Positions 3,168-28,216 of a stretch of 39,154 nucleotides of DNA are shown piece by piece. Source of the DNA: Rhodospirillales bacterium (GTDB lineage: Bacteria; Pseudomonadota; Alphaproteobacteria; Rhodospirillales; Casp-alpha2). Numbering within the stretch: the first letter of the stretch is position 1; every line of letters begins with the position of its first letter. The notes below the pieces were generated by a model, which searched no databases, was not told the origin of the DNA, and worked only from the letters and a program-made list of their open reading frames with translations. The stretch lies in the NCBI GenBank assembly GCA_021775105.1, contig JAJFIJ010000247.1, positions 1-39,154 of the forward strand, read 5' to 3'. Both the position numbers and the translations under genes were made by a program.

Positions 3168-3920
3168 CTAAAACACCGCACGCCGGATCAGGTTCAGGCC
3201 GATAATGAAAAGCGCAATTAGCAGCACCTTGCGGAAGGTTTCCTGATCTATGTGTTTGCGAATGACTTCGCCAACCAAAATCCCTGCCATGCCTGGCAGA
3301 CAGGCATAGATGGATAGCGGAATGGTCTGCGCGTTGAGAATGCCGTTGGCCCAGTAGGACAGGGTCAACGGTATGGACCCCAAAAACCACACCAGACCGA
3401 CGACCCTGACCCAGATGTCTTTTGGCAACTTGAGTAGGACCAGATACATCATCATCGGCGGCCCCCAGATCGTCGATACACCACCAAGTATGCCGCCGAG
3501 TGTCCCAGCCAGCGGAGCAGCCCATTTCTGTGTTTTTGGACTTAAAGGTTCGACCGGGGGGCGGATAAAATTCGATAGAGTAAAGATCGTCACGCAGACA
3601 CCGAGAATGCCAAACAGGGCGTTGGGGTCGATATTGACGACGAAATGAGCGGTCAAGACGAGAAACACGATGAAGCAGATAATCATCGGCGCAAATTGTC
3701 TCAGCGGTGCAAACAGGTTTCCGGCGCGCACGGCCTGCCAGAGGTTGGTCACCAGAATGGGGGCAACAACAATCGCCAGCGCCACTGGCGCGGATACGAA
3801 ATTGACGACAATGGCAATGGTGACGATGGGCAAGCCGATGCCGCTGACGCCCTTGACGATACCGCCGACGAAGATGGCAGCGGAGATCACAGCGAGAGTT
3901 GGTGTGTCATACCCGAACAT
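3168..3920 (-). CDS. TauE/SafE family permease
   Basis: 250 aa, hydrophobic; GGIVKGVSGIGLPIVTIA and GTLGGILGGVSTIWGPPMMMYL are typical of the family. Confidence 0.88.
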   Translation of the reverse strand: MFGYDTPTLAVISAAIFVGGIVKGVSGIGLPIVTIAIVVNFVSAPVALAIVVAPILVTNLWQAVRAGNLFAPLRQFAPMIICFIVFLVLTAHFVVNIDPNALFGILGVCVTIFTLSNFIRPPVEPLSPKTQKWAAPLAGTLGGILGGVSTIWGPPMMMYLVLLKLPKDIWVRVVGLVWFLGSIPLTLSYWANGILNAQTIPLSIYACLPGMAGILVGEVIRKHIDQETFRKVLLIALFIIGLNLIRRAVF

Positions 3921-4055: not shown

Positions 4056-4826
4056 TTGGAACTCGACAGGTTGGCGAAAACTTTGGGCGAAGAAAGCGCG
4101 ATTGGTGAAACGCGCGTGCCCAAATACGTGGTCCTGTCGGATCAGATCATCGGTGAAATTGAAGCCGGGAATTTGCGGCCTGGCGAACGCCTGCCCGGTG
4201 AGGCAGATATGGCCGCTGTCCTGCCCGCCAGTCTTGGCACCATCCAGAAAGCACTTTCGCGACTGGCCGATCAGGGAATGGTCGTGCGCCGCCATGGTAC
4301 GGGAACATTCGTATCTGACGGGCGCAGGCGGCTGATAGATCTCTGGCATTTCAGGTTTCTGGCGGACGACGACGAAACTTTGTTGCCGGTATTTGCGACT
4401 GTCGAAAACATTTCCCTGACGCGAACTGTCGGACCGTGGTCAAAATTTCTGGGTGAAGATGCAGATTATGTCTGTATCGAACGCCGGATCGATGTGAATG
4501 AAGAGTTCGACAGTTTCGCCCGATTCTTTGTTTCGGCCGAACAGTTTCCGGGGCTGGTCCAACTGGACCGCAACGCACTTGATAACGTCTCATTCCGAGC
4601 CTTTCTGAAGGCCCAGTATGGCGTCGCGACGCTGCGGGTCGCCGAACAGGTCGCGGCGGAAGCCATGCCGGATGATATTTGTGAGGTGATGGGACTGACA
4701 TCCCAACCTGTCGGGCTCGTCTATCACCTGCGCGGTTTTGGTTACAAGGATGCCCCTGTTTCTTATCAGGTTGTTTATATTCCGCCGAACTCCCGACGTC
4801 TGGAGTTCGGACCCGTCAGAAAATAA
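4056..4826 (+). CDS. GntR family transcriptional regulator with UTRA-like effector domain
   Basis: N-terminal wHTH: PKYVVLSDQIIGEIEAGNLRPGERLPGEADMAAVL...GTIQKALSRLADQGMVVRRHGTGTFV; the C-terminal half resembles UTRA. Confidence 0.9.
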   Translation: MELDRLAKTLGEESAIGETRVPKYVVLSDQIIGEIEAGNLRPGERLPGEADMAAVLPASLGTIQKALSRLADQGMVVRRHGTGTFVSDGRRRLIDLWHFRFLADDDETLLPVFATVENISLTRTVGPWSKFLGEDADYVCIERRIDVNEEFDSFARFFVSAEQFPGLVQLDRNALDNVSFRAFLKAQYGVATLRVAEQVAAEAMPDDICEVMGLTSQPVGLVYHLRGFGYKDAPVSYQVVYIPPNSRRLEFGPVRK

Positions 4827-4840: not shown

Positions 4841-7084
4841 ATGCCACATTCCACCTATCTCCCACATCTTATGGGCTCGGCGACCGTATCCCCAACAGGA
4901 AGTTTTGAGGCCGGATCCTGGCAGGAGTTCACAGTCACTTATACGGCGGGAAAGTTCGGCATTGATGATTCCGGTTCAATCAAACTGGTTCACCGATTTG
5001 CCAGCGATATGGGGCGTCCGCAAATGGCCGATCCCAAGGCCGCTAATTATGTTTCGGTTGAGGCGTCAAACGGCGCGGTGCTGGCTGTTGATTTCGATGG
5101 CAAACAGAACATCCGCCCATGGGACAAAACCATTTATATCAAGGTCGTTCGGGGGTTTCTCAGGAAAGGCGACCAGATCGTTATGCGCCTTGGAGACCGG
5201 CGTCAGGGGAGTCCCGGTATCCGTGTCCAAACCTTCTGTGAGGATACTTTCGAATTTCGCATCATTGTTGATGCGATCGCCACCTATAACTATGTCGAAC
5301 TTCCCGAACAGCCTGTTGTCTCCATCGTTTCCGGTCCGCCGGTATTATGGAAAGCCATTTTACCGACAGAACGCAAAACGGGGACACTTTTTCGTCTTTG
5401 CCTGAAAGGGGAAGATCGCTGGGGCAATCCATCCGATCAATGCGACCAGACGTTCCGGCTTCAGACCAATATGCCCGTTGACGGGTTGCCCGAAACGGTG
5501 ACTTTCAGCAAAGGTGAATTCTCCATTATTCTACCTGATTTGAGCTGTGCCGCAGCAGGAGACCTGGTGATTAAGTTGCTGGACAGTGACAATCAGGTTG
5601 CTGCCCGTTCCAATCCGTTACGCCTTTCGGCATCTTGTGACCTGTTCCCGTATTGGGGTGATTTGCATGGTCAGTCAGAAGAAACCATCGGCACCAATTC
5701 GGCACGTGAATTTTTCGAGTTCGGGCGCGACAAGGCGTTTCTGGATGTCTGCTGTCATCAGGGTAACGATTTCCAGATCACTAAAGAATTCTGGGCGCAT
5801 CTGAATGAGCTGACGGCGGAGTTTAATATTGATGGCCAGTACATCAGTTACCCAGGGTATGAGTGGTCAGGCAACACCGGCATGGGCGGAGATCGCAATG
5901 TGCTGTTCATGGAAGAAGGTCGACAAATTCACCGCTCATCCCATGCGTTGATTGAAGATCTGTCCGATGAGGATACGGATTCTCACACGGCTGCCGAATT
6001 GTTCGAAGACATCAGGGACGAAGATTGCACGGTGTTTGCCCATATTGGCGGTCGGTATGCCGATATCAAAATGGCCCATGACGACAGACTGGAACGCGCC
6101 GTAGAAGTTCATTCCGCCTGGGGGACGTTTGAATGGTTGATCCATGATGCCTTTGAGCAAGGGTATCGTGTTGGCATTGTCTCGAATTCCGACGGTCATA
6201 AGGGACGTCCCGGTGCCAGTCATCCTGGTGCGACCAGCTTCGGCTCCTATGGTGGGTTGACCTGTATGTTGGCTTCTGACTTGACGCGCGCCGGAATTAT
6301 GGACTCACTCCGCCGTCGCCATCATTACGGAACCACCGGATGCCGCATGGTTCTTGATACCCGCGTTGTCTTCGACGACCCGGCTGAACGTTTCGCCGAA
6401 GACCCCAACCTCGGTCCAACATCATCTGAACAGGTAGCAGATGCGATGATGGGGGATATTGTCAAATGCAACGCCGGAGAAATCACGTTCAGAATTGACG
6501 CTCATGGGTCTGCCCCCATTGAACGTATTGAAATTCGCAATGGGCTCGACACCCTTGAAACCTATCGTCCGTTCACCAGATCCGAACTTGGTACTCGCAT
6601 TCGGGTGATATGGGAAGGATCGGAATACCGGGGCCGGGGTCGTGAGACCTACTGGAACGGGTTTGCCGAACTCGACGGGAACACATTTTCCAGATTATCC
6701 CCCATCAACCGTTACAATGTTGACCGACGATTTGAACAGACTGCAGATGGTCGCGTCGACTGGGAAGCATTGACCACGGGAGGCTTTGGCGGGTTTGATG
6801 CGTGGCTCGGGGATCGAGATAGCGGAACGCTGAAGATTGATACAGCGCTGGTTAAGGAAGAGATCAACGTCAGAGATATCGGACTGGAAGATCTGGGGTT
6901 TGAAAACGGTGGTATCAACCGCCGCATTCGGGTCTTCCGTATGCCGGATGTCAATCCACACCATCACGTTACACTTGAGCGCCGCTTGCCGGTTCTCGAG
7001 GGGCGCGATAATGCCTATTACGTCTGCATCGTTCAGGAAGACGGTCATTTCATCTGGTCGAGTCCGACCTACGTATTCAAGTAG
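4841..7084 (+). CDS. DUF3604 (PHP-like) domain protein, function unknown
   Basis: 747 aa; PYWGDLHGQSEE, HQGNDF, YPGYEWSG, AHIGGRY and VSNSDGHKGRPG resemble the DUF3604 metal-site pattern. 14 nt after the GntR gene. Confidence 0.85.
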   Translation: MPHSTYLPHLMGSATVSPTGSFEAGSWQEFTVTYTAGKFGIDDSGSIKLVHRFASDMGRPQMADPKAANYVSVEASNGAVLAVDFDGKQNIRPWDKTIYIKVVRGFLRKGDQIVMRLGDRRQGSPGIRVQTFCEDTFEFRIIVDAIATYNYVELPEQPVVSIVSGPPVLWKAILPTERKTGTLFRLCLKGEDRWGNPSDQCDQTFRLQTNMPVDGLPETVTFSKGEFSIILPDLSCAAAGDLVIKLLDSDNQVAARSNPLRLSASCDLFPYWGDLHGQSEETIGTNSAREFFEFGRDKAFLDVCCHQGNDFQITKEFWAHLNELTAEFNIDGQYISYPGYEWSGNTGMGGDRNVLFMEEGRQIHRSSHALIEDLSDEDTDSHTAAELFEDIRDEDCTVFAHIGGRYADIKMAHDDRLERAVEVHSAWGTFEWLIHDAFEQGYRVGIVSNSDGHKGRPGASHPGATSFGSYGGLTCMLASDLTRAGIMDSLRRRHHYGTTGCRMVLDTRVVFDDPAERFAEDPNLGPTSSEQVADAMMGDIVKCNAGEITFRIDAHGSAPIERIEIRNGLDTLETYRPFTRSELGTRIRVIWEGSEYRGRGRETYWNGFAELDGNTFSRLSPINRYNVDRRFEQTADGRVDWEALTTGGFGGFDAWLGDRDSGTLKIDTALVKEEINVRDIGLEDLGFENGGINRRIRVFRMPDVNPHHHVTLERRLPVLEGRDNAYYVCIVQEDGHFIWSSPTYVFK

Positions 7085-7096: not shown

Positions 7097-8344
7097 ATGA
7101 GATTGACGGACTATGAACAGGCGATGCTGGCAGGGGAATTTGGCGAACCCCGCCGTCGTGCATTATCTCAGCAGATCGAAATTGGAAATTTTTTTGACGC
7201 CGAGGATTTCGTTGAAGTTGCGCAGGCCCATATCATGGCCGACACCGAATCCCTTGGAGAGGCCGGAGTTGTTTTCCTTGAGGAACTGGCTGCGGGCTCG
7301 AAAGAAGAAACCTGCGTTCTGATTCCAACCATCACCGACCCGCGCGGTGCCGATTTTCAGGCCTACGAAAGAATCAATCACGATCCGGCCTATGTCGCGC
7401 TGGAACGTCGGGCCGTTGATGCCTTTCGTGCACTTGGCATTCTGATGACCGATACCTGCATCAACTATCAAACGGTGATGGCCCCGGTGCGCGGTGAACA
7501 TCTGGCAATGGGCGACACAGGCGTTGTGATCTATTCGAATTCGGTTCTGGGGGCCAGAACCAACTATGAAGGTGGCCCATCGGCGCTGGCATCAGCCATG
7601 ACCGGACGGACAGCGCGCTACGGATTTCACCTCGATCAGCACCGCCGGGGGACAACGCGTTTTGTTGTCTCGCGTCAACCCGAAGACTGGTGTGACTGGG
7701 GGATATTGGGCGGTATCGTCGGTCGTGCTATGGGATCATATTTCGAGGTGCCGGTCATTGAAGGGCTTGAGGGCACAGCGCCGACTTCTGATGATCTGAA
7801 ACACTTCGGCGCGGCGATGGCCAGCTTCGGTTCCTCCGCCCTGTTTCATATTCCCGGCGTAACTCCCGAAGCTCCCAATCTGGAATCGGTCTTTGAAGGT
7901 GCCTCGCCGGAGCCGACCGTTATCGAAGACACCGTAATTGATGCGTTCAAACAATCTTACGGGGCTTCTGACGACCGTCTGGATGTAGTTGTTTTTGCCG
8001 CCCCTCAGTTGTCATTAATGGAATTACAGCGCCTTGCCGGATTACTTGACGGCAAGCAGGTGAACGACGCGGTTACCTTGCTGGCGGCGACCAACCCTGA
8101 GAACAAGTTTGCCGCAGATCGTATGGGACTGACCGGAACCATTGAGCAAGCGGGAGGAATCCTGCTGGAGGGTGTGTGTTTCTATCAGATGCATGCCCGC
8201 GAACTGGGTGAGGCAAACGGCTGGACCCGATTGATGACCAACTCGGCGAAACTCTCCAACATTATTGGCGGATACGGTTACGAGCCGGTTCTGGCGGATA
8301 TGAAACGATGTGTCGAATCTGCTGTTGCCGGGAGGATTGTCTGA
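7097..8344 (+). CDS. Aconitase X large (catalytic) subunit-like protein
   Basis: YSNSVLGARTNYEGGPSALASAMTGRTARYGFH, LSLMELQRLAGLL and LMTNSAKLSNIIGGYG match the AcnX catalytic domain (former DUF521). Confidence 0.9.
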   Translation: MRLTDYEQAMLAGEFGEPRRRALSQQIEIGNFFDAEDFVEVAQAHIMADTESLGEAGVVFLEELAAGSKEETCVLIPTITDPRGADFQAYERINHDPAYVALERRAVDAFRALGILMTDTCINYQTVMAPVRGEHLAMGDTGVVIYSNSVLGARTNYEGGPSALASAMTGRTARYGFHLDQHRRGTTRFVVSRQPEDWCDWGILGGIVGRAMGSYFEVPVIEGLEGTAPTSDDLKHFGAAMASFGSSALFHIPGVTPEAPNLESVFEGASPEPTVIEDTVIDAFKQSYGASDDRLDVVVFAAPQLSLMELQRLAGLLDGKQVNDAVTLLAATNPENKFAADRMGLTGTIEQAGGILLEGVCFYQMHARELGEANGWTRLMTNSAKLSNIIGGYGYEPVLADMKRCVESAVAGRIV

Positions 8345-8763
8345 TGACGAATGTTGTCATTCAAGGTCATGTAGGCATGGGGAATCCCGTCAGTGGAAAA
8401 GCGCTGGTTGCCCATGATAATTTCAGTGCGCGCTATGATCTCGACCGCATCAAGGGTGTGTTTTCCCGCCCGGCTCATGCGCTTTATGGTGAGAGCTATG
8501 TGAATAAAATTCTGATCCTCAATATCGCCAAAGGTGGCGTCGCGACCGCCTGGATGCTTCATGAAATGATGTCGAGAGAGATGGCACCAAAAGCCCTGTT
8601 GCTGAATTATGCCAACCCGATTATCGCTCAAGGTGCAGCTTTTGCCGGATTCACGCTGCTTGACCGGTTTGAACACGACATTACCCAAACAGTTAAAACC
8701 GGTGATCAGGTTCACGTCGATCCGGCCAGTGGCATTGTCATGATCGGGAGTAATTCGGTATGA
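8344..8763 (+). CDS. Aconitase X small (swivel) subunit-like protein
   Basis: GKALVAHDNFSARYDLDRIKGVF... and VLNIAKGGVATAW-like region typical of the AcnX swivel domain (former DUF126). ATG overlaps the stop of the large subunit (TGATG). Confidence 0.88.
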   Translation: MTNVVIQGHVGMGNPVSGKALVAHDNFSARYDLDRIKGVFSRPAHALYGESYVNKILILNIAKGGVATAWMLHEMMSREMAPKALLLNYANPIIAQGAAFAGFTLLDRFEHDITQTVKTGDQVHVDPASGIVMIGSNSV

Positions 8764-9599
8764 GCCGGGGTATTGATCATCTTGTTCTTGCAGCCCGAGA
8801 CCTGTCGGAAGCCTGCGGCTTTTACGAGCGGTTGGGGTTCAAGCTGACGCCACAGGCTCAGCACCCGTTCGGCACTGGCAATCGGCTGGCCCAACTGAAA
8901 AATGACTTTCTGGAAATCCTGAGTGTTACCAGCCCAGAAGATCTGATTGAACACAGCGAAGGGTTTTTCAGCTTTGGTGCTCATAACCGCGATTATCTGG
9001 AACGTTGTGAAGGCATGTCGATGATCGCATTGAAAAGCGATGGTTGGGAAAAAGATCGTCAAACGTTTAAGGATGCAGGATTCGACCTGCCCAAGCCCTT
9101 TACGTTTTCAAGACTGGCCCGCCAACCGGACGGTGGTGACGTCAAGGTCGGGTTCGATTTGACCTTTGTTCCGGACGCCGGATTGCCGGACGCTGTGTTC
9201 TTTACCTGCGATCACCAGCATCAACCGGAATACTTCTACAAACCTGAATTTCAGAAGCATGCTAACGGCGCGCTTGCTGTTGATGAAGTGATTATGATGA
9301 GCAATGATCTGACCGGCACAAATGCTTATCTGTCACGGCTTTACGGAATTGAACAGCCGGTTTCGGTTTTAACGACGGCGCAGCTGGAAGACCGTTTCCC
9401 CGGTCATGAAACGATAGATATAAGTGGTGACGCGGTCTTCGCCGGATACCGGATCGGAGTACTTGATCTGGGACATACGCGATCCATTCTGGAATCCAAC
9501 GCGATTGATTATGCTGACAAGGAAAGCAGCATTTGGCTATACGCCTTTGGAACAATCATAGAATTTTCCGACCACTCGGCAAATGAGAGTATGAAATGA
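8760..9599 (+). CDS. VOC / glyoxalase-like domain protein
   Basis: N-terminus GIDHLVLAARDLSEACGFYERLGFKLTPQAQHPFGTGNRLAQL; overlaps both neighbours by 4 nt. Confidence 0.85.
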   Translation: MSRGIDHLVLAARDLSEACGFYERLGFKLTPQAQHPFGTGNRLAQLKNDFLEILSVTSPEDLIEHSEGFFSFGAHNRDYLERCEGMSMIALKSDGWEKDRQTFKDAGFDLPKPFTFSRLARQPDGGDVKVGFDLTFVPDAGLPDAVFFTCDHQHQPEYFYKPEFQKHANGALAVDEVIMMSNDLTGTNAYLSRLYGIEQPVSVLTTAQLEDRFPGHETIDISGDAVFAGYRIGVLDLGHTRSILESNAIDYADKESSIWLYAFGTIIEFSDHSANESMK

Positions 9600-10315
9600 C
9601 AGAGGAAATGCTTCAGGTCTCCGTGTGGCGTGGGGGCGCTGAAGGCGCATTCGATGAATTTCAGGTGCCGCGTCAGGAAAGCCAGACGGTTCTTGATGTG
9701 GTTACCCACATTCAGCGCCACATTGACCCGACCCTGAGTTACCGTTTTGCCTGTCGGGTCGGGGTTTGCGGGTCCTGTGCGATGACGGTTAACGGCAAGG
9801 CCCGCTGGACGTGCCGCAGTCATGTATCGAACGTTGTTGAGGATGGGCGCATAGAGATCAGGCCACTGGAATCCCTGCCGGTGGTTAAGGATCTGGTTGT
9901 TGATATGACTGATTTCTTTGACAAATGGGCAAAGGCAAAGGGGTCATTCGAACCAACCTGTTCGCGCAATGATCAACTTGCTCCTGTTTCGCCGACTGAA
10001 AAGAAACGTCGTCTTGTCGATGCCGGGATTGAATGCATCGGCTGTGGGGCCTGTTACGCGACTTGCGACGTGGTCAAGTGGAAACCCGATTATCTTGGCC
10101 CGGCAGCAATGAACCGCGCCTGGACTCTGGTCAATGATATTCGAGATGGTGGCAACGATGACCGTCTGCGTGCTATCGGCGGAGATGACGGTTGTCTTGG
10201 TTGTCATAGCCAGCAGGGTTGTGTTGAGCGTTGTCCCCAAAAACTGAATCCGACGATGGCAATTGCCGGACTGAAACGCGAAACCGTCAAAGCCGCGCTA
10301 AAGGGAAAACTGTGA
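9596..10315 (+). CDS. Succinate dehydrogenase/fumarate reductase-like iron-sulfur subunit
   Basis: [2Fe-2S] motif CRVGVCGSCAMTVNGKARWTC, [4Fe-4S] motif CIGCGACYATC, [3Fe-4S]-type CHSQQGCVERCPQKLNP. Confidence 0.93.
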   Translation: MTEEMLQVSVWRGGAEGAFDEFQVPRQESQTVLDVVTHIQRHIDPTLSYRFACRVGVCGSCAMTVNGKARWTCRSHVSNVVEDGRIEIRPLESLPVVKDLVVDMTDFFDKWAKAKGSFEPTCSRNDQLAPVSPTEKKRRLVDAGIECIGCGACYATCDVVKWKPDYLGPAAMNRAWTLVNDIRDGGNDDRLRAIGGDDGCLGCHSQQGCVERCPQKLNPTMAIAGLKRETVKAALKGKL

Positions 10316-10677
10316 TGATCGACAACACGGTTCGTTCTGAAACCTTTCTGTGGTTGGCGCAACGTTCAAGCGCCGCGGTGCTGGCCATTTGCATCACGGT
10401 TCATATCATCACCATGATTTTGGCCATGGAAGGTGGCTTGAGTACTGCGGAAATCGCCGGGCGAGTTGGTGGAAATTGGGGTTGGTTAGTATTTTATTGC
10501 GTATTTGTTGCCGCCGTCTCCATTCACGCGCCCATCGGGTTGCGGGCAGTTCTGTTGGAATCAACATCCCTGTCTTCAAAGCGGGTGGGCCTGCTGACCA
10601 TGATCTTCGGCCTGTTTGTTTTCACCCTCGGCATCCGGGCGGTCTTTGGTCTGTTTCGTTTGGTGCTGGCCCCATGA
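10315..10677 (+). CDS. Succinate dehydrogenase-like membrane anchor subunit (cytochrome b type)
   Basis: QRSSAAVLAICITVHI and HAPIGLRAVLLE (H-x3-GxR pattern). ATG overlaps the stop of the Fe-S subunit. The listed ORF 10231..10677 is an in-frame upstream extension. Confidence 0.75.
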   Translation: MIDNTVRSETFLWLAQRSSAAVLAICITVHIITMILAMEGGLSTAEIAGRVGGNWGWLVFYCVFVAAVSIHAPIGLRAVLLESTSLSSKRVGLLTMIFGLFVFTLGIRAVFGLFRLVLAP

Positions 10678-11015
10678 AACGAACCAATCGAAATCACCCC
10701 ACCTATTGGGCTTTTCTCCTGCACCGGGTATCTGGCGTACTGCTGGCGGTGTTCGTTCCCGTTCATCTATATGTCCTGAGCCTCGCCATTAACGAGGGGG
10801 CGTTGCTGGATGAGTTTTTGCGCTGGTCCTCGACGCCTGTTGTCAAGTTAATGGAGACGGGCATGGTTGTGATGCTGGCGGCCCACCTAACCGGAGGTTT
10901 ACGTCTGCTGGGGCTTGAATTCCTCGCCTGGTACGCTTGGCAGAAAACCGCACTGGCACTGTCTGTCGGGATCAGTCTTGCTGTCGGTTTGGTATTTTTG
11001 CTCAATGCCAGTTGA
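10674..11015 (+). CDS. Succinate dehydrogenase-like membrane anchor subunit (SdhC-like)
   Basis: FLLHRVSGVLLAVFVPVHLYVL (HRxSG motif) and AAHLTGGLRLLGLE. Starts at ATG 10674, inside the longer listed ORF 10350..11015. Confidence 0.8.
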   Translation: MKRTNRNHPTYWAFLLHRVSGVLLAVFVPVHLYVLSLAINEGALLDEFLRWSSTPVVKLMETGMVVMLAAHLTGGLRLLGLEFLAWYAWQKTALALSVGISLAVGLVFLLNAS

Positions 11016-11727
11016 ACTTCTGATCATACCGCTTGGCGCATTTTTAGCCGCCTTTGTCGTTGCCGCGGCTGGTTTTGGTGACGCGCTGGTACTGGGTGCA
11101 ATCTGGTTTCATTTTCTGGACCCGATCGACGCCGTGCCGTTGATTGTCGCCTGCGGTTTCGTGATGCAGTTTCAACCACTATACAGGCTGCGCAAGGTGC
11201 TTATCTATTCAGACCTGCCGCCGTTCGTTTTTGCCGGCGTACTGGGAGTGCCCGTCGGCGCGTGGTTTCTGGCACACACGGCACCGGATCCGTTCCGTCT
11301 TGGTATCGGGGTTTTTCTGATTGCCTACGGCATTTTTATGCTGTTCCGGCCGCATACGACGGAACTGTTGTGGGGTGGAAGAATTGCCGATGCTTTTGTC
11401 GGATTCCTAGGCGGGGTTTTGGGCGGGTTCGCCGGATTGAGTGGGGTCACGCCAACTCTTTGGGTTGGATTGCGCGGCTGGGTCAAAGCCCGCCAGCGCG
11501 GTGTATACCAACCCTTCGTTTTTGCCATGCATGGTTTAAGCGTCGCCTGGTTGGCCTGGAAGGGTCTGGTTGATGCAGAAACCGGTATGTGGTTGGCGTT
11601 GTGTCTTCCTGCCATTCTGATTGGCGGTTGGGTGGGGTTGAAAGTTTACCACCTGCTTGATGAAAAACGGTTTCGGCAATTTATACTGGCACTCCTGCTG
11701 GTTTCCGGCATAGCGCTGGTTTTATGA
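11005..11727 (+). CDS. TauE/SafE family permease (second copy)
   Basis: AAFVVAAAGFGDALVLGAIWF and GFLGGVLGGFAGLSGVTPTLWVGLRGW. Start MPVELLIIPLG at 11005 overlaps the upstream stop. Confidence 0.85.
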   Translation: MPVELLIIPLGAFLAAFVVAAAGFGDALVLGAIWFHFLDPIDAVPLIVACGFVMQFQPLYRLRKVLIYSDLPPFVFAGVLGVPVGAWFLAHTAPDPFRLGIGVFLIAYGIFMLFRPHTTELLWGGRIADAFVGFLGGVLGGFAGLSGVTPTLWVGLRGWVKARQRGVYQPFVFAMHGLSVAWLAWKGLVDAETGMWLALCLPAILIGGWVGLKVYHLLDEKRFRQFILALLLVSGIALVL

Positions 11728-11742: not shown

Positions 11743-13464
11743 ATGAATGCAAATATCGAATATCAAAAAACCGATGTTTTGATTTTGGGAGCTGGCGGAG
11801 CCGGATTGTTTGCCGCCCTGCATGCCGCCAAGGCGGCTCCTGATCTGGATATCACCATCACCGTCAAGGGCCTGCTTGGTAAATGCGGTTGCACGCGTAT
11901 GGTGCAGGGCGGATACAATGCCGCGATGGCGTCGGATGATTCAGAAGTTCGCCATTTCATGGATACCATCGAAGGCGGAAAATGGCTCAATCATCAGGAA
12001 CTGGCATGGACGCTGGTTAATCAGGCCCCCGTCTGTATTCGCGAACTGGAAAATGAACTTGGGTGCTTTTTTGACCGCAACCCGGATGGCAGTCTGCACC
12101 AAAAGGCGTTCGCCGGACAAACTTACGACCGTACCGTTCACAAGGGCGATTTGACGGGAATCGAAATTATCAACCGTCTGTCTGAACAGGTCTGGAAGCG
12201 TGGCATTAACCGGCTGGAAGATCATCGCGCGCTGGAATTTGTGATGGCCGCTGACGGTTCCGGCCTGTCCGGGGTGTTGATGGTCGATATGCGGACCGGC
12301 GATTTCCGTTTCGTTCAGGCCAAGGCTGTTTTGCTGGCGACTGGTGGTGGACCTTCGATGTATCGTTACCATACGCCATCAGGCGACAAGTCATGTGATG
12401 GCATGGCGATGTCATTACGGGCTGGCCTGACGCTTCGCGATATGGAAATGGTGCAATTCCATCCGACCGGCCTTATTGCCGGGGACGATACACGGATTAC
12501 CGGAACTATTATTGAAGAAGGCCTTCGCGGATATGGTGGATACCTGCTGGACGGCAACGAAGAGCGTTTTATGCACAAATATGATGACCGCAATGAACGG
12601 GCGACCCGGGACATCGTCAGCCGTGCCATGTATTCGGAAATGACCAATGGCACCACCGGTCCCAATGGCGGGCTCTATATCAATATGGCCCATCTCGATC
12701 CCAAGGAAGTGCGAAAGCGCTTCAAGGGAATGGTCACGCGTTGTGCTGATTGCGGATTTGATCTGGTTTCCGGCAATGTCGAGGTTGTGCCGACCGCTCA
12801 CTACATGATGGGCGGTCTTGAATTTAACGTCGACTGTTCAACTGAATTATCGGGCTTGTTCGCTGCTGGTGAAGATACTGGTGGTGTTCACGGGGCAAAC
12901 CGGCTGGGTGGCAATGGTGTTGCCAATTCCACCGTTTTCGGTGGATTGGCCGGTGATTCACTGGCCCGTTGGGTGCCTGAAAATGGTCAGTGGCGTGATC
13001 CGGATAAAGAAGCGATGGGCGCCGCGGTCAAAGCCGCTTTACATCCTTTTGAGCACCCTGCCGGTGATTTGCCGGGTATTCGTGAACGCCTTTATACCGC
13101 GATGTGGGATGATGCGGGGATTATTCGCGATGGCGAACGTCTCCTCCGTGCGCGAGATTCCATCAAGGCGTTGGGCGATGAATTGTCAGCCGCCGGAATT
13201 TCCGGCAGTGACCGCGCCTATAACCTGACGTGGCACGACTGGATGAACCTCAATAACCTGATCTTGGTCAGCAAGGTGATTATTGAGGCGGCATTGACCC
13301 GCGACGATTCCCGAGGCGCCCATTTCCGGTCTGATCACCCAGATACCAAGGATGTTGAAAATTCATGGTACACCCGTGTGAAATACGTCGGTGACACGCT
13401 TGATATCTCGAAAAAATCAGTCGACTTCACGCGCGTTCAACCGGGAGAGACGTTGCTGGATTAA
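11743..13464 (+). CDS. Succinate dehydrogenase/fumarate reductase-like flavoprotein subunit
   Basis: DVLILGAGGAGLFAALHAA, QFHPTG, RGYGGYLL, ATRDIVSRA, HYMMGGLEFNVD and GANRLGGNGVANSTVFGGLAG. Confidence 0.93.
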   Translation: MNANIEYQKTDVLILGAGGAGLFAALHAAKAAPDLDITITVKGLLGKCGCTRMVQGGYNAAMASDDSEVRHFMDTIEGGKWLNHQELAWTLVNQAPVCIRELENELGCFFDRNPDGSLHQKAFAGQTYDRTVHKGDLTGIEIINRLSEQVWKRGINRLEDHRALEFVMAADGSGLSGVLMVDMRTGDFRFVQAKAVLLATGGGPSMYRYHTPSGDKSCDGMAMSLRAGLTLRDMEMVQFHPTGLIAGDDTRITGTIIEEGLRGYGGYLLDGNEERFMHKYDDRNERATRDIVSRAMYSEMTNGTTGPNGGLYINMAHLDPKEVRKRFKGMVTRCADCGFDLVSGNVEVVPTAHYMMGGLEFNVDCSTELSGLFAAGEDTGGVHGANRLGGNGVANSTVFGGLAGDSLARWVPENGQWRDPDKEAMGAAVKAALHPFEHPAGDLPGIRERLYTAMWDDAGIIRDGERLLRARDSIKALGDELSAAGISGSDRAYNLTWHDWMNLNNLILVSKVIIEAALTRDDSRGAHFRSDHPDTKDVENSWYTRVKYVGDTLDISKKSVDFTRVQPGETLLD

Positions 13465-13934
13465 CCGGCTGCCTGACTCGGGCATCCTGCACCGTCAATG
13501 GTAACGCCCCGTTCATTGGCCCAAATATTGCCCAGGTTTTCCTGTTCGTCTTCGCTGAGCACCTGCCGGGTCATGCCGAACAGCACCATTTCTTCTTTTC
13601 GGAAGTGGCTGTAGGCGAGCATGATCAGTTCATCGACCACTGATTTCAGTTGCTCAGGGTTTGTTTCCGCCTTGGCGGCCCCCAGCAAGCGGTCTATTTC
13701 CTGATGTTCGGATTTCATGACCCGGAGCGGACCCATCTGTCCGAGATGCGGTTCCAGAGCCGGGAATAAATGGTTTTCTTCCATTTGCGCATGGGTCCAG
13801 AGCTGGTTTTCCAGTATTTCCACAGCGACCTGCAGTTGTTCAATGGAGCGGTCTTCGTCGATCTGTCGACGAATATCTGTGAACAGGGCATATAACATGG
13901 CGTGTTCGCCAAGCAGTGCGTCGGTTATTTTCAT
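13461..13934 (-). CDS. Hemerythrin HHE cation-binding domain protein
   Basis: LLGEHAMLYALF, HAQMEENHLFPALEPH, KSEHQEIDRLL and HFRKEEMVLF provide the His/Glu ligand pattern. MKITDALL start at 13934. Confidence 0.85.
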   Translation of the reverse strand: MKITDALLGEHAMLYALFTDIRRQIDEDRSIEQLQVAVEILENQLWTHAQMEENHLFPALEPHLGQMGPLRVMKSEHQEIDRLLGAAKAETNPEQLKSVVDELIMLAYSHFRKEEMVLFGMTRQVLSEDEQENLGNIWANERGVTIDGAGCPSQAAG

Positions 13935-14034
13935 TGGTGAAGCCTTTGGTTTTTGATATCTGTTTTTAACTGCGGAATTTCGCAGACATACAGAGATAAC
14001 AGGGAACTCAGGCGTATCCTTGATTATGGTCAAT

Positions 14035-14619
14035 TCATACCGGTTTGGCGGGCTGAATCTGATAACCATACTCATACGATGCCTCAGTCAGTTCTTCCCA
14101 GAGCACCCGGGCGAAACCGCGGGCAACATAAACATCAAAAGTCTGATCATCGATGTGATCAAGCAGAATATTAAGGCTACCGAACCTGCTTTGCGCACAA
14201 TCACCAAAACGGAAACTTTTCGGATGCAGGTCAAGTGGGCAACCCTTGGCAAGAACATCGCGTATTTTCGGACCATGCAACCTGATGATTGTTCGCCCGC
14301 TGCTGACATTACTGATGCTGCCGCCGATAAACTCCGGGACCGTAAAATCAGACGCACTATCAGTTACAAGCCAGCGTTGAGGTGATAACCAAAAAATCCG
14401 ACGTGTATCGGCGCTAATGACTGAATTCGGGGTTAGCGGTAGTGGACTGCCGATAGCGGATTCAGCTTCGATGAGAAAATCGATATTGGTTGCATCTCCA
14501 CCAATATCGAACAAAATCAAGGGACGGCGTTCGAATATAACAAGGGCAGTTTCGTTGCCGAACGAACCTTCCTGATAAACCGCCTCAAGGGCGGAACGTC
14601 GCTGGGAAATATCAGGCAC
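14035..14619 (-). CDS. soxG: Sarcosine oxidase gamma subunit
   Basis: SoxG-like sequence (RRIFWLSPQRWLV...) directly after soxA. GTG start at 14619 overlaps the soxA stop; a longer ATG start at 14685 is less likely. Confidence 0.8.
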   Translation of the reverse strand: MPDISQRRSALEAVYQEGSFGNETALVIFERRPLILFDIGGDATNIDFLIEAESAIGSPLPLTPNSVISADTRRIFWLSPQRWLVTDSASDFTVPEFIGGSISNVSSGRTIIRLHGPKIRDVLAKGCPLDLHPKSFRFGDCAQSRFGSLNILLDHIDDQTFDVYVARGFARVLWEELTEASYEYGYQIQPAKPV

Positions 14620-17614: not shown

Positions 17615-17889
17615 GTGTCGTCCTCCGCAAAACTGTCGTTCGGCGCGCCGGTTCGCAAGATGTCATGCGTTTTCAGATTACGCCGTACTTTGACGAACTG
17701 GCGGCATCCGGACGAATGCTGCCACATCTCGTCATGATCGCCGGAAGGATTGTCTCGCAAATAGATGTGATCAAGCCAGTCTTCGTCGCTGGCCGTTTCC
17801 GGGTCAGGTCGGCGAATAGTAGCGTCTCCTTTGTAGGTAAACTCGGTTTCCGCCCGCTCACCGCACCAGGGGCATTTGATATTCAGCAT
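17611..17889 (-). CDS. soxD: Sarcosine oxidase delta subunit
   Basis: 92 aa; MLNIKCPWCGERAETEFTYKGDATIRRPDP...DHIYLRDNPSGDHDEMWQHSSGCRQF is characteristic. Confidence 0.93.
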   Translation of the reverse strand: MLNIKCPWCGERAETEFTYKGDATIRRPDPETASDEDWLDHIYLRDNPSGDHDEMWQHSSGCRQFVKVRRNLKTHDILRTGAPNDSFAEDDT

Positions 17890-17900
17890 CCCAGTCCCTC

Positions 17901-19154: not shown

Positions 19155-19241
19155 GCTGCGCAAGACCTTGCCCGTTGATCGAATTGTACAGCGGAAAATT
19201 TAGCCCGACCATTCAATGATTAAAAAGCATAATTTTTCTTT

Positions 19242-21029: not shown

Positions 21030-21962
21030 TTAGCTGTTCTCGGCCTGATGGGCAGCGATCAGGGCCGCCAGTGCTGCAGAGGCGACGCGGGCCTGCGGCG
21101 GATCAGCACGTGACGTCAGCATGATTGGCACCGTGGCCCCAAGGACGATACCCGCCGCCGTGGCACTCATGAAATAGGCCATCATTTTGAACAGGCCGTT
21201 ACCGGTTTCGATATTCGGAACGACAAGAATGTCGGCGTTTCCAGCAACCGGGCTGGTCACACCTTTCAGCCGTGCTGCATCCGGAGAGACCGCGTTATCG
21301 AAAGCAAATGGACCATCGACAAGGGCATTTCTGATTTCACCGGCAGCAGCAATCTTGACCACTTCGGCGGCTTCGCCGCTGGAGGGCATGGCGGGCAGGA
21401 CTGATTCCGTACCAGATAACATGGCGACCTTCGGCGTCGCGTTACCGAGTGCATGAGCCAGATCGATTGAATTTTTGACAATGTCGATTTTTGTTTTTGT
21501 ATCGGGCGCAATATTAACCGCGCCATCGGTAATCATTAAAACCCGCTCGCTGCCAGGGATGGTCATATGGAAGATATGGCTGAGGCGGCGTCCTGTACGA
21601 AGACCCGTGTCACGTTTGACGACCGCCGACATCAGCGCATCGGTATGGACATGACCTTTCATGATCGCCCCGACGTCGCCTTCTCTGGCGAGCGTGACCG
21701 CACATTCCGGAGCCTTGTTTTCGCCCGGTGCATCGATCACTCGAATACGCGCAATGTCCCAGTCGATATCACGGGCCAGGCGCCTGATCTGGTCACCATC
21801 ACCGATCAAGGTCGGGATGATCAAGCCGTCTTTCGTCGCCTGTCGGGCACTTTCCAGCGCCACCACATGATCGGCCCCGGCAACGGCCGTCATAACCGGC
21901 GGAACCTTTTTGCACAGGTCTTGCAGGTAGGGCGGAATTTCAAACGGCTTGGTGCTCAGCAT
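21030..21962 (-). CDS. Phosphate acetyl/butyryltransferase family protein (phosphate acetyltransferase)
   Basis: LARDIDWDIARIRVIDAPGENKAPECAVTLAREGDVGAIMKGHVHTDALMSAVVKRDTGLRTGRRLSHIFHM; next to Xsc, which yields acetyl phosphate. Confidence 0.85.
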   Translation of the reverse strand: MLSTKPFEIPPYLQDLCKKVPPVMTAVAGADHVVALESARQATKDGLIIPTLIGDGDQIRRLARDIDWDIARIRVIDAPGENKAPECAVTLAREGDVGAIMKGHVHTDALMSAVVKRDTGLRTGRRLSHIFHMTIPGSERVLMITDGAVNIAPDTKTKIDIVKNSIDLAHALGNATPKVAMLSGTESVLPAMPSSGEAAEVVKIAAAGEIRNALVDGPFAFDNAVSPDAARLKGVTSPVAGNADILVVPNIETGNGLFKMMAYFMSATAAGIVLGATVPIMLTSRADPPQARVASAALAALIAAHQAENS

Positions 21963-22038: not shown

Positions 22039-23817
22039 TCAGGCGCCTTTTTGCGGGCGCATGTCGTTCGGATCAATGCCAGCAACCGAAACGGGAGCTT
22101 TCATGGCATCGCGGCGGAACGGTTCGCCAAGTTCCTGATTGAGCACAATTTCAATGAACGTTGTCACGCCATCTTCCTGTGCCTTGCAGGCAACTTTCAG
22201 GGCTTCTGTCAATTCTTCAGAGGTCTTGACCATCACACCCTTGAGACCACATCCTTCGGCTACTTTTGCATAGCTGAGATTACGGTCCAGTTCCGTGCCG
22301 ACAAAGTTGTCATTGTACCAGAGAATGGTGTTGCGCTTTTCAGCACCCCACTGAAAGTTGCGGAAGATCACCATCGTGACCGCCGGCCATTCGCCACGAC
22401 CGCATGAGGTCATTTCGTTCATAGAAATACCGAATGCGCCATCACCGGCGAAGCCGACAACCGGAACATCAGGTTTGCCGATTTTGGCACCCAGAATGGA
22501 CGGGAAACCATAACCGCAGGGGCCGAACAAGCCCGGAGCCAGATACTTGCGGCCTTCTTCAAAGGTCGGGTAGGCGTTGCCGATGGCACAGTTATTGCCA
22601 ATGTCACTTGAGACAATGGCGTCTTTCGGCAGGCCTGCCTGAATTGCGCGCCAAGCCTGACGGGGAGCCATAAGATCAGCATCGCGTTCGCGGGCTTCAG
22701 CATTCCAGACGGTACCCGGATCATCGTTTTCATGATCCAGACTGCTCAGTTCCTGCATCCAGGCCGATTTGGTCTGGTGGATCACGGCTTTGCGGTCTTC
22801 GCGTCCGGCGTCTCCGGCCGTTTGAGCGAGCTGGGCGAGGATTTGTACGGCAACCAGCTTAGCGTCACCCTGAATGCCAACTGTAACCTTTTTGGTCAGG
22901 CCAATGCGGTCAGAGTTGATATCGACTTGAATAATGGCGGCGTCTTGGGGCCAGTAATCTATGCCATATCCCGGCAGCGTCGAGAACGGGTTAAGACGGG
23001 TTCCGAGAGCCAGCACCACATCCGCTTTGGCAATCAGTTCCATGGCTGCCTTGGAGCCGTTATATCCAAGCGGTCCAGCGGCCAGCGGATGGCTGCCGGG
23101 GAAGCTGTCATTGTGCTGATAACCGCTGCAAACCGGTGCATCAAGACGCTCTGCCAAAGCTTTGCATTCAGGAATGGCACCGCCGATAACAACGCCAGCA
23201 CCTGACAAAATAACCGGGAATTTGGCGTTTGACAGAAGCTCAGCGGCTTCAGCGATTGCTGTGGCACCACCGGCCGGGCGTTCAAGGCGAACGATCTGCG
23301 GCATCTCAACGTCGATCACCTGAGTCCAGAAATCACGCGGCACGTTGATTTGGGCCGGAGCCGAACCACGGATGGCTTTTTCGATGACACGGTTGAGCAC
23401 TTCTGGAATACGGGTCGCGTCACGGACTTCTTCCTGATAGCAAACCATGTCTGCAAAAAGAGCCATCTGTTCGACTTCCTGAAAACCGCCCTGTCCAATT
23501 GTTTTATTAGCGGCCTGCGGGGTAACCAACAGCATTGGCGTGTGATTCCAGTAAGCTGTTTTGATTGGGGTGACGAAACCGGTGATGCCTGGTCCGTTCT
23601 GGGCAATGGCCATCGCCATCTTGCCGGTGGCGCGGGTATAACCGTCACAGATCAGGCCAGCGTTGGTTTCATGAGCGCAATCCCAGAACGTGATCCCTGC
23701 CTTGGGGAACAGATCTGAGATCGGCATCATGGCCGAACCAATGATACCAAACCCGTGTTCAATACCATGCATTTGCAGAACTTTTACAAATGCCTCTTCA
23801 GTTGTCATTTTGGTCAT
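22039..23817 (-). CDS. xsc: Sulfoacetaldehyde acetyltransferase
   Basis: ThDP-enzyme; FGIIGSAMMPISDLFPKAGITFWDCAHETNAGLICDGYTRATGKMAMAIAQNGPGITGFVTPIKTAYWNHTPMLLVTPQ is strongly Xsc-like. Confidence 0.95.
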   Translation of the reverse strand: MTKMTTEEAFVKVLQMHGIEHGFGIIGSAMMPISDLFPKAGITFWDCAHETNAGLICDGYTRATGKMAMAIAQNGPGITGFVTPIKTAYWNHTPMLLVTPQAANKTIGQGGFQEVEQMALFADMVCYQEEVRDATRIPEVLNRVIEKAIRGSAPAQINVPRDFWTQVIDVEMPQIVRLERPAGGATAIAEAAELLSNAKFPVILSGAGVVIGGAIPECKALAERLDAPVCSGYQHNDSFPGSHPLAAGPLGYNGSKAAMELIAKADVVLALGTRLNPFSTLPGYGIDYWPQDAAIIQVDINSDRIGLTKKVTVGIQGDAKLVAVQILAQLAQTAGDAGREDRKAVIHQTKSAWMQELSSLDHENDDPGTVWNAEARERDADLMAPRQAWRAIQAGLPKDAIVSSDIGNNCAIGNAYPTFEEGRKYLAPGLFGPCGYGFPSILGAKIGKPDVPVVGFAGDGAFGISMNEMTSCGRGEWPAVTMVIFRNFQWGAEKRNTILWYNDNFVGTELDRNLSYAKVAEGCGLKGVMVKTSEELTEALKVACKAQEDGVTTFIEIVLNQELGEPFRRDAMKAPVSVAGIDPNDMRPQKGA

Positions 23818-23965: not shown

Positions 23966-25084
23966 TCAGGCTGCGACCGCAGCGTTCGGGTCAACAAAAT
24001 TGTATCCGAGGTCGTCGGCGACCGCTTTATAGGTAACATCGCCCTCGTGGACATTGAGCCCGTTAAGCAGATGCGGATTGTCCTGAAGTGCCTGCTTATA
24101 ACCCTTGTCGGCGATTGCCAACGTGAACGGCAGGGTCATGTTGTTGAGTGCATATGTCGACGTGCGGGCCACAGCACCTGGCATGTTGGCAACACAATAG
24201 TGAACGACATCATCAACGATGTAGGTTGGATCCGCGTGTGTTGTCGCGTGAGAAGTTGCGAAACAACCACCCTGATCAATAGCAACATCCACCAGCACGG
24301 AACCCGTTTTCATCGCCTTGACGTGTTCTTCGTTAACCAGCTTAGGAGCAGCGGCACCCGGAAGCAGGACGCCGCCGATCACAAGGTCAGCACCAAGAAC
24401 ATGTTCTTCAATTGCCAGCGTGGTCGAATAGACTGTTTTAACCGTCTGTCCAAAACGAACGACAAGCGCCCGCATAGTGTCCACATTGCGATCCAGAATG
24501 GTTACATCAGCACCAAGCCCAATAGCCATATAAGCTGCATTTTCGCCGACGACCCCGCCGCCAATGATGACAACCTTGGCTGGAGCAACGCCGGGAACAC
24601 CACCCAACAGGATTCCGGAACCGCCCTGAGCCTTTTCCAGGCAATGTGCCCCTGCCTGAATGGACATCCGCCCAGCGACCTGTGACATGGGGGCAAGCAG
24701 GGGAAGTCCGCCGTGGCTGTCGGTCACAGTTTCATAAGCAATGCAGACGGCACCACTGTCGACTAAATCTTTGGTCTGGTCGGGGTCGGGAGCAAGGTGC
24801 AGATAGGTGAACAGAATCTGGCCTTCACGCAGCATTTTGCGCTCGGCCGCTTGTGGTTCCTTGACCTTAACGATCATATCCGCTTCGGCAAAAATCTGCT
24901 CGGGCGTCGTGTAGATGGTCGCACCTGCGGCTTCATAGTCGGCATCACTGGCACCGATACCGATACCACCGTTGGTCTCGACAACAACCTGATGACCATG
25001 ATGAACGGATTCACGAACACTGGCTGGCGTCATGCCAACGCGATATTCGTGGTTTTTGATTTCCTTTGGAACGCCAATAAGCAT
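23966..25084 (-). CDS. ald: Alanine dehydrogenase
   Basis: [44 protein letters not shown]... and [30 protein letters not shown]. The 25195 start is an upstream extension. Confidence 0.95.
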
Positions 25085-25202
25085 TTCAGTAAACTCCGGA
25101 AAATGAGGAAAAGACAGAACCAAGACTCCCGACGCGTCGCAAATCATGCACGCAGGGCCTTGATGTACCCCTTTGATAAGGCCACAGCACGGCACCGCGG
25201 TA

Positions 25203-25259: not shown

Positions 25260-26729
25260 TCAGGCCTTGTGGCGCTTCATTATCTGCGAAAGCAACTCAA
25301 TGCCGGGCTCAATACGTTCGTCAGGAATGGAAGACAGTCCGAGCCTGAAAAAATTTGCCGGTGGAGCTTCTCCGGCAAAATGTGGGGTGCCGGGTTCGAG
25401 GACCAGACCTTCCGTCAAAGCGTCCTTTGCCAGATCAAATGAATCCATATTCTCATCCCCCCGGACCCAGAAACTGGTGCCGCCAAATGTTGGTATTTCC
25501 GCCGATCCCGGCAGGTATTTTTCAAGTGCGGCCGCCATCGCCTGCCAGCGTGAACGGTAGGCGCGATGCAGTCGGTGGATCAGGGTGTCGTGATGTCCGA
25601 GCGCCAGAAAATAGGCGACGGTACGTTGATTGTTATTTGGGGTATGGCGCAACATCAACAAACGCAATGCACGAAGCTCATCGATCAGGTCGGAAGATGC
25701 CACCAGATAACCTAGTCGAAGTCCAGGAAACAGTGTTTTTGACAGGCTGCCGACGTAAACAACACGGTTGTTGATATCGAGGGACTTTAACGCCGGGGTC
25801 GGTGAACTGGCGTAATTGGTTTCGCTTTCGTAGTCGTCTTCAATAACGACAAAATCATGCTCCTCGGCTCGTGACAGCAGGGCCTTTCGGCGTTCCATCG
25901 GCATGGTTCGGGTCGTTGGCGACTGATGCGATGGCGTGACATAGACGTAGTCGCATTGGTCCAGCCGTTCATCAATCGGCAGCCCTCCCTGATCAACCGG
26001 GATGGGGGTGATGTTGCTGGTTTTGACACTGAAAATATTACGGGCATCCGGATAGCCCGGATCCTCGATTGCAACCCGGACTCCTTCGCGCATTAACAGG
26101 CTTGCCATTAGATACAGTCCGTTCTGAGCACCCAGCGTGATCAGGATTTCATCAGTCGAGGCCATTATTCCGCGCCGTGGCAGCAGGCGGGTCTTGATTT
26201 GTTCGATCAACTGCGGATCGTCACTACCGCTGGTATCGCTGGTCCACGCATCCATACCGCGCTTACCCATGGCCTGTCGTGTGCATTCACGCCAGGCGGC
26301 GATGGGAAACAGTACGGGATCGACCTGATTGGAGATAAACGGGTATTTGTAGGTTTGCCAATCCAGTGGTTTTTTAATGGTGGGATGGATGGTCGGGTGA
26401 AGCTTGAAACGTTTTTTCCAGTCAAGTTTTTTACCTTTTGGCTCGTCCTGACGGGTGTCGGAGTTTGCCCGCCCCTCAAGAATTTCGGGATTTACATAAA
26501 ACCCGCTTCGTTCCCTCGACGTCAGATAGCCGTCGTCGACCAATCCCTGATAGGCCAGAACGACAGTATTTCTGGAGACCTTCAGGGTTTTCGCCATTTT
26601 TCTGCTGGACGGCAGGGGCATGCGGGACGGTAATTGCCCATTGAGAATAGCGGATACCAGCATTTCCCTGATCTGGGACTGAATACTGGTATTTTCAGTA
26701 CGCTCAAAGTGGAACAGAGTGTCCCGCAT
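25260..26729 (-). CDS. MocR-type regulator (GntR wHTH + aminotransferase-like domain), probable TauR-type taurine regulator
   Basis: N-terminal wHTH SSRKMAKTLKVSRNTVVLAYQGLVDDGYLTSRERSGFYV, followed by a fold-type I aminotransferase-like domain (VYVGSLSKTLFPGLRLGYLV). Divergent from the aminotransferase gene. Confidence 0.88.
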   Translation of the reverse strand: MRDTLFHFERTENTSIQSQIREMLVSAILNGQLPSRMPLPSSRKMAKTLKVSRNTVVLAYQGLVDDGYLTSRERSGFYVNPEILEGRANSDTRQDEPKGKKLDWKKRFKLHPTIHPTIKKPLDWQTYKYPFISNQVDPVLFPIAAWRECTRQAMGKRGMDAWTSDTSGSDDPQLIEQIKTRLLPRRGIMASTDEILITLGAQNGLYLMASLLMREGVRVAIEDPGYPDARNIFSVKTSNITPIPVDQGGLPIDERLDQCDYVYVTPSHQSPTTRTMPMERRKALLSRAEEHDFVVIEDDYESETNYASSPTPALKSLDINNRVVYVGSLSKTLFPGLRLGYLVASSDLIDELRALRLLMLRHTPNNNQRTVAYFLALGHHDTLIHRLHRAYRSRWQAMAAALEKYLPGSAEIPTFGGTSFWVRGDENMDSFDLAKDALTEGLVLEPGTPHFAGEAPPANFFRLGLSSIPDERIEPGIELLSQIMKRHKA

Positions 26730-26905: not shown

Positions 26906-28216
26906 ATGCAATTTACCGCGAACAACCTCGAACACCACTGGATGCCATTTACGGCAAACCGAGCCTTTAAAAACGATCCACGTATTATCGTCAAAGGTGA
27001 AGGAGTGTATTTTACAGATCATCATGGCGCTCAGATTATCGATGGTTCATCGTCTCTGTTCTGTTGCCCGCTTGGGCATGGCCGTAAGGAAATCGCCGAA
27101 GCTGTATATAATCAGCTCCTGGAAAACGACTATGCATCGCCGTTCGGAAGCGGAACGCCGGGAACCTTTGAGTTGGCACAAAAGGTTGCCCGCATCACCC
27201 CGGACGAAATTAATCACGTATTTTTCGTCAACTCGGGTTCGGAATCCATTGATACGGCGCTAAAGATGGCAATGGCTTATCATCGCGCTCGTGGTGAAGG
27301 CCAACGTACACGGTTCGTTTCTCGCGAACGTGCCTACCATGGCGTCAACATTGGTGGAGTTAGCCTCAGTGGTATGGTCAAGAATCGTGAAACGTTCAGC
27401 GGAGTGATGCCGAATGTTGTCTGTATGCGTCATACCTGGGACGAAGATCAGGCCTTTTCACGTGGCCAGCGCGAGGGCGGCGTCGAACTCGCCAATGATC
27501 TCGAACGCTTCTGCGAAACCTACGGTGGAACAACGATTGCTGCGGTTTTTGTCGAACCGATAGCCGGGTCGACCGGTTGTCTGGTTCCACCCAAGGGATA
27601 TCTCGAACGCCTTCGTGAAATCTGTGACGAACACGGCATTCTGCTGGTTTTTGATGAAGTCATCACTGGCTTCGGGCGCACAGGCTCGGCATTTGCTTCG
27701 CAGCAGTTTGGAGTGACCCCAGACATTATGACCATGGCCAAGGCGTTAACCAATGGCGCGCAGCCCATGGGGGCGGTTGCTGTCCGTGATGATGTTTACA
27801 AGACAATCACCGAAGCGGCTCCGGAGAATGCCATTGAATTTTTCCACGGCTACACATACTCAGGTCATCCGGCAGCTTGTGCCGCAAGCATTGCTGTTCA
27901 GGATATCTTCCAGAACGAAAATCTGTTTGAACGGGCGAATGATCTGTCAGAATATTTCCTTGATGGACTTTATAGTCTTCAGGATCTGGACTGTGTGCGT
28001 GATATCAGAGGATATGGATTGATTGGCGCGGTTGAACTTAAACCCGTTGGCGGTCCGGGTGCTCGCGGTGGTGCGGCACAGGTGGCGCTATTCAAGAAGG
28101 GCATGCATGTGAAGTTTACCGGTGATTCCGGCATCGTTGCTCCACCCTTTATTTCAGAGAAAAGCCATATTGATGAGATGATGGACAAAATGCGTGCCAT
28201 GCTCAGCGAAATCTGA
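26906..28216 (+). CDS. Class III omega-amino acid:pyruvate aminotransferase, probable taurine:pyruvate aminotransferase
   Basis: PLP enzyme with VFFVNSGSESIDTALKMA, LLVFDEVITGFGRTGSAFASQQFGVTPDIMTMAKALTNGAQPMGAV. The taurine assignment rests on the xsc/ald/pta/TauR context. Confidence 0.8.
   Translation: MQFTANNLEHHWMPFTANRAFKNDPRIIVKGEGVYFTDHHGAQIIDGSSSLFCCPLGHGRKEIAEAVYNQLLENDYASPFGSGTPGTFELAQKVARITPDEINHVFFVNSGSESIDTALKMAMAYHRARGEGQRTRFVSRERAYHGVNIGGVSLSGMVKNRETFSGVMPNVVCMRHTWDEDQAFSRGQREGGVELANDLERFCETYGGTTIAAVFVEPIAGSTGCLVPPKGYLERLREICDEHGILLVFDEVITGFGRTGSAFASQQFGVTPDIMTMAKALTNGAQPMGAVAVRDDVYKTITEAAPENAIEFFHGYTYSGHPAACAASIAVQDIFQNENLFERANDLSEYFLDGLYSLQDLDCVRDIRGYGLIGAVELKPVGGPGARGGAAQVALFKKGMHVKFTGDSGIVAPPFISEKSHIDEMMDKMRAMLSEI

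Follow-up and report, generated by a model that had tools for sequence, protein, structure and literature searches.

Canonical succinate dehydrogenase flavoproteins (SdhA) carry their FAD on an 8alpha-histidyl bond, and the question raised by the locus analysed here is what reaction a complex-II-like enzyme performs when that histidine is a cysteine and the substrate loop is altered as well. The locus lies in a window of 39,154 nucleotides, the whole stretch of Rhodospirillales DNA that was analysed, and the flavoprotein, P0001, is placed as follows:

11743..13464, plus strand: SdhA/FrdA-like flavoprotein P0001, candidate flavin subunit of a 3-sulfopropionate dehydrogenase, with Cys50 at the FAD-histidine site and Glu258 at the Thr254 site
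11890..11892, plus strand: Cys50 codon, aligned with His45 of E. coli SdhA
12514..12516, plus strand: Glu258 codon, aligned with Thr254 of E. coli SdhA in the substrate carboxylate pocket

The open reading frame runs from an ATG at 11743 to a stop at 13464, encodes 573 amino acids and contains the motifs KGLLGKCGCTRMVQGGYN and TGTIIEEGLRGYGG. Its product exceeds the gathering scores of PF00890 (FAD_binding_2; 246.8 bits, cut-off 20.4) and PF02910 (Succ_DH_flav_C; 88.4 bits, cut-off 20.8). By alignment with E. coli SdhA, FrdA and NadB from MG1655, Cys50 falls on SdhA His45, on FrdA His45 of the gene product (His44 of the mature protein) and on NadB Ser45; since the Thr51 that directly follows is invariant and the alignment is gap-free from there to the QGG motif, this placement is not in doubt. 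The initial annotation had read Cys in place of the FAD-linking His, and this holds for all 103 aligned family members, with no His aligning at the position. It had also judged the other catalytic positions to be retained, in agreement with our alignment, in which His240, Glu259, Arg262, Arg289, His353 and Arg387 match SdhA His242, Glu255, Arg258, Arg286, His354 and Arg399, respectively. Because His240, Arg289, His353 and Arg387 are kept, the chemistry of C-C dehydrogenation is plausibly kept too, and its sequence marks P0001 as a member of the SdhA/FrdA superfamily with the dicarboxylate catalytic His/Arg set.

The substrate loop reads EEGLRGYGG where the canonical loop is TEGARGEGG. The replacement of the Thr, described at the outset, stands, with the correction that the first of two Glu takes its place and that a further change, Glu to Tyr, follows downstream (Tyr264 at the position of SdhA Glu260, where the family has Tyr, Ala or Phe). 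Taken by itself, this loop points to no particular substrate. Two further changes from SdhA are fixed in the family, namely Ala137, replaced by Lys134 (Lys in 102 of the 103 aligned members, Arg in one), and Gly120, replaced by Ala124 (103/103). Cys50, Arg52, Met53, Val54, Glu258 and Ala124 are invariant among the 103 members, and both Cys50 and Glu258 are absent from the 24 outgroup rows. This conservation and the gap-free surroundings rule out chance, sequencing error or misalignment as the origin of the two residues.

The family forms one clade apart from SdhA, FrdA and NadB (support 99 in a 50-row tree from a quick search, a value that is not a bootstrap). Phylogeny thus places P0001 outside SdhA, and clade and residues together exclude it as a canonical SdhA or NadB; by these sequence features the family is a sister of respiratory complex II, with Cys for the FAD-linking His. 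Features held in common with E. coli SdhABCD are the fold, the FAD domain, the equivalents of His242, Arg286, His354 and Arg399, and the B, C and D partners, at about 30% identity to SdhA, whose canonical model TIGR01816 gives P0001 333.3 bits, under the curated cut-off of 727.35. E. coli FrdA, 33% identical to P0001, differs in having the covalent His and a different genomic context. The highest-scoring NCBIfam model is NF004900, the CoM/CoB fumarate reductase TfrA of methanogens, an enzyme that reportedly lacks covalent FAD, and P0001 (504.1 bits) falls under its curated cut-off of 718. NadB, a homologue with non-covalent FAD (PMC5773532), has Ser at the Cys50 position and lies in a different clade. 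It is not known to have SdhB, SdhC or SdhD partners. An AlphaFold model of P0001, built from 12 relatives with a mean pLDDT of 73.8, is weak at the active-site loops, where confidence is low for residues 46-63, 120-136 and 239-256; its best structural matches are E. coli FrdA structures (6awf, 1kf6 and 5vpn, TM about 0.83-0.86), and the model supports the predicted fold, not the active-site geometry.

Among 190 genomes of the class, orthologues with 61-69% identity occur in 11 besides that of the window, and the next matches drop to 38%. The named scan of genome contigs returned at least 577 relatives among at least 590 pattern matches; the best 80 of these relatives come from Rhodospirillales, Burkholderiales, Methylobacterium and others. 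Plasmid-borne relatives occur in Paracoccus, Sulfitobacter, Pseudorhizobium, Cupriavidus, Pseudomonas, Rhodococcus (50%) and haloarchaea (46-48%), and the 103 aligned members represent Proteobacteria, Rhodococcus and haloarchaea. The genome of the window also encodes a canonical SdhA (L003, with SHTVAAQGG), an FrdA/SdhA-like copy (L002) and a NadB (L004).

P0001 belongs to an operon with the gene order sdhB-C-D-tauE-A. This operon and the genes upstream of it are:

3168..3920, minus strand: second TauE/SafE exporter
4056..4826, plus strand: GntR/UTRA regulator, first gene of the row
4841..7084, plus strand: DUF3604 protein, recurring in 9/79 family loci
7097..8344, plus strand: aconitase X large subunit, putative hydratase of the locus or putative added step
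8308..8763, plus strand: aconitase X small (swivel) subunit
8760..9599, plus strand: VOC/glyoxalase-like protein, recurring beside sdh-like genes in Rhodospirillales loci
9596..10315, plus strand: SdhB-like iron-sulfur subunit with Fer2_3 and Fer4 domains and cysteines for three clusters
10315..10677, plus strand: SdhC/D-type membrane anchor (Sdh_cyt domain), predicted start
10674..11015, plus strand: second SdhC/D-type membrane anchor (cytochrome b556 subunit type, Sdh_cyt domain), predicted start
11005..11727, plus strand: TauE/SafE exporter between anchors and flavoprotein, predicted start, overlapping the preceding gene

With the cysteine motifs of the SdhB-like subunit, two Sdh_cyt anchors and the flavoprotein, the operon is predicted to encode a respiratory complex II architecture. 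At the beginning of the window (13-2970), a SucC, cut by the contig start, and a SucD-like ligase are found with an MFS transporter; the two could form a sulfonate-CoA ligase pair like SauCD/HpfYZ. Directly downstream of P0001, on the opposite strand (13461-19163), lie genes for an HHE hemerythrin protein and sarcosine oxidase (soxG-soxA-soxB), counterparts of which recur in related Rhodospirillales loci. Further downstream, positions 21030-28216 hold a taurine-type cluster:

21030..21962, minus strand: pta-type phosphate acetyltransferase, probably acting together with xsc
22039..23817, minus strand: xsc, sulfoacetaldehyde acetyltransferase, a desulfonation enzyme (TIGR03457, 961.7 bits, cut-off 676.4)
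23966..25195, minus strand: alanine dehydrogenase (ald), partner of taurine/omega-aminotransferase
25260..26729, minus strand: MocR-type regulator (PdxR/TauR kind)
26906..28216, plus strand: omega-aminotransferase (AptA family)

The neighbourhoods of relatives bear on the substrate. In 64 named loci, whose ORFs were clustered and then annotated, the core consists of SdhB, two anchors, a two-subunit hydratase resembling class I fumarase/tartrate dehydratase, and SdhA. Accompanying genes encode split proteins of the altronate dehydratase family (SuyB/SuyA type), D-2-hydroxyacid dehydrogenases, TauE, a TPP enzyme and transporters, as well as Ldh_2 dehydrogenases whose nearest model is sulfolactate dehydrogenase (219.7 bits, cut-off 500). 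The SuyA and SuyB calls rest on family, size and context and denote relatives with a predicted function; a search for a solved SuyB structure found only galactarate dehydratase. As a control, 79 family loci were compared, within about 10 kb, with 20 loci of ordinary SDH from the same class as the window; the loci span several classes and are partly dependent on one another, so that p values are to be read as guides. A class I, fumarase-like hydratase is present at 70 of the 79 family loci, any hydratase at 76, TauE at 46, a ComC-type protein at 36, a SuyB relative at 34 and an SlcC-type protein at 23, each against 0/20 ordinary loci. Among the 190 genomes of the class, SuyB occurs in 7 of the 12 with the family and in 9 of the 178 without it (p 4.6e-6); the corresponding figures for SuyB or Xsc are 10/12 and 24/178 (p 5e-7).

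The link to sulfonate genes recurs in Methylobacterium, annotated plasmid records show the same neighbour pattern, and Paracoccus plasmids carry such a row of genes. In haloarchaea, the flavoprotein gene is flanked by SuyAB-like (UxaA) proteins, TauE and a Lyase_1-superfamily protein, with an Ldh at L140 in addition. On two haloarchaeal plasmids (L136 and L140), a protein annotated as argininosuccinate lyase lies between SuyAB/TauE and the flavoprotein and is possibly a third hydratase type; class I fumarase-like, aconitase X and argininosuccinate-lyase-like proteins may be three unrelated types of hydratase at one step. Aconitase X is out as a general obligatory partner, being present in only 9 of the 79 loci, five of which have a class I hydratase too. 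At 9 loci (L060 and L089 among them), mostly from Burkholderiales, the gene row includes a sulfatase-family hydrolase (ORF family F21).

3-Sulfopropionate is an analogue of succinate in which a sulfonate replaces one carboxylate. Oxidised and then hydrated, it would pass through sulfoacrylate to sulfolactate just as succinate passes through fumarate to malate, and a complex-II-like dehydrogenase, a fumarase-like hydratase and sulfolactate genes match these steps. We therefore propose, with a probability of roughly 0.6, that P0001 provides the flavin subunit of a complex-II-like 3-sulfopropionate:quinone oxidoreductase of four subunits that feeds sulfolactate degradation, the putative substrate being read from gene context. 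The complex of the sdhB, sdhC, sdhD and sdhA-like products would oxidise 3-sulfopropionate to 3-sulfoacrylate, its iron-sulfur clusters relaying the electrons to quinone, the presumed acceptor. A separate hydratase would then add water to give 3-sulfolactate; it would be the class I fumarase-like enzyme in most relatives and, in the genome of the window, either an unlinked copy or the aconitase X of the operon. SlcC/ComC with SuyAB, or routes through sulfopyruvate and Xsc, would release sulfite from sulfolactate, and TauE would export it. The SlcC/ComC-SuyAB pathway, relatives of whose genes flank the family in many loci, starts from sulfolactate (PMC12421959, PMC10507020), and the P0001 complex would add the preceding oxidation of 3-sulfopropionate. 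That the substrate is probably not plain succinate, as suggested when the locus was first read, is well supported by context, i.e. the separate clade, the fixed change in the carboxylate pocket, the canonical SdhA elsewhere in the genome and the sulfonate-gene neighbours.

Across the family, the link to sulfolactate degradation is seen in gene context; in the genome of the window it runs through xsc and TauE, not SuyAB, and sulfolactate could be drained via sulfopyruvate and sulfoacetaldehyde to Xsc. A linked class I hydratase is absent from the window, and contig C243 of the same genome encodes a two-subunit hydratase, the alpha subunit of which shares 67-75% identity with one subtype of SdhA-adjacent hydratases. 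Several points speak against 3-sulfopropionate. The Glu in place of Thr254 puts a charge beside the expected anion site and is no obvious adaptation to a sulfonate, no SuyB relative exceeds the threshold used in this genome, and its sole ComC-type match has 31% identity. By the thresholds of the locus comparison, 16 of the 79 family loci lack a sulfonate gene, though two of these (L136 and L140) are annotated with SuyAB-type proteins and TauE. Aldehyde dehydrogenases that would make 3-sulfopropionate, as the upstream 3-sulfopropanal dehydrogenase, are not enriched at family loci.

Another sulfonate or a substituted succinate, such as sulfosuccinate, methylsuccinate/mesaconate or a branched dicarboxylate, could be the substrate, and the hydratase would then form the corresponding hydroxy acid. 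Taken alone, the hydratase also fits a route from methylsuccinate through mesaconate to citramalate, and the TTT, ABC and TRAP transporters found at family loci suit many carboxylates. One locus (L051) has glutamate mutase (MutS/L/E) genes and an enolase-superfamily gene near its sdh-like operon, genes that match the mutase genes in size and order occur at L055 and L063, and no hydratase was found in loci L051 and L055. However, relatives of SuyAB, SlcC, ComC and TauE are strongly enriched, and the first three act on three-carbon sulfolactate, so we consider such a substrate possible, though unlikely. That P0001 is an ordinary second isoform of succinate dehydrogenase or fumarate reductase, altered by neutral drift, agrees with the complete set of complex II subunits and the conserved catalytic residues, but is very improbable: the differences are fixed in 103 sequences across two domains of life, the family forms a clade of its own, the genome has a canonical SdhA as well, and the sulfonate neighbours are non-random.

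The direction of the reaction is tied to the state of the flavin. In FrdA, covalent attachment lifts the potential of the flavin from -145 to -55 mV; mutants that lack it still reduce fumarate but no longer oxidise succinate (PMC5773532). Because loss of the link abolishes succinate oxidation in FrdA, an oxidising enzyme without the His needs explanation. FAD on an 8alpha-S-cysteinyl bond occurs in other flavoenzymes, and the fixed Cys50 could form such a bond; alternatively, FAD would be non-covalent and the potential of the substrate couple lower, or the enzyme would work reductively. The initial proposal that FAD is non-covalent or differently attached does follow from the missing His, and the sequence fits either state. 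In the reductive direction, sulfolactate would be dehydrated and sulfoacrylate reduced to 3-sulfopropionate as an electron sink, as in a fumarate reductase with non-covalent FAD. The behaviour of FrdA lacking its His link and the closeness to TfrA (504 bits, below 718) favour this direction, yet many of the named hosts belong to genera that we take to be aerobic, and the desulfonation and export neighbours suit catabolism; on balance, we find a reductive role distinctly improbable.

As for the proposed substrate, 3-sulfopropionate is formed from homotaurine and also when gut bacteria degrade sulfoquinovose. According to PMC11489063, the sole earlier report of its bacterial degradation is a thesis on Roseovarius nubinhibens ISM, which describes conversion of homotaurine to 3-sulfopropionate, sulfoacrylate and sulfolactate; the mechanism in Bilophila is described as unclear (PMC12890257). 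In the papers that could be searched, a set that leaves out most subscription journals and the thesis, no gene is assigned to 3-sulfopropionate oxidation. During growth on sulfofucose, Paracoccus induced a cluster labelled 'fumarate and tartrate' that includes a TauE homologue (PMC12421959) and is possibly of the same kind as the sdh-like cluster. A bolder reading, which we regard as speculative and rather doubtful, is that the family is a widespread, unrecognised branch of complex II that uses a sulfonate in place of succinate, holds FAD on an 8alpha-S-cysteinyl bond at the His position, restoring the flavin potential for oxidation, and supplies a missing first step of aerobic 3-sulfopropionate degradation.

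Altogether, the P0001 family offers candidate genes for 3-sulfopropionate oxidation and the hydration that follows it, in hundreds of bacteria as well as in some haloarchaea. Bacterial aconitase X types IIc-f are functionally unknown (PMC8184944), and the two-subunit aconitase X at 7097-8763 suggests sulfoacrylate hydration as a possible task for the bacterial enzyme. The family also puts a textbook point to the test, since it would represent either oxidative complex II chemistry without a histidyl-FAD bond or the use of cysteine as its replacement.
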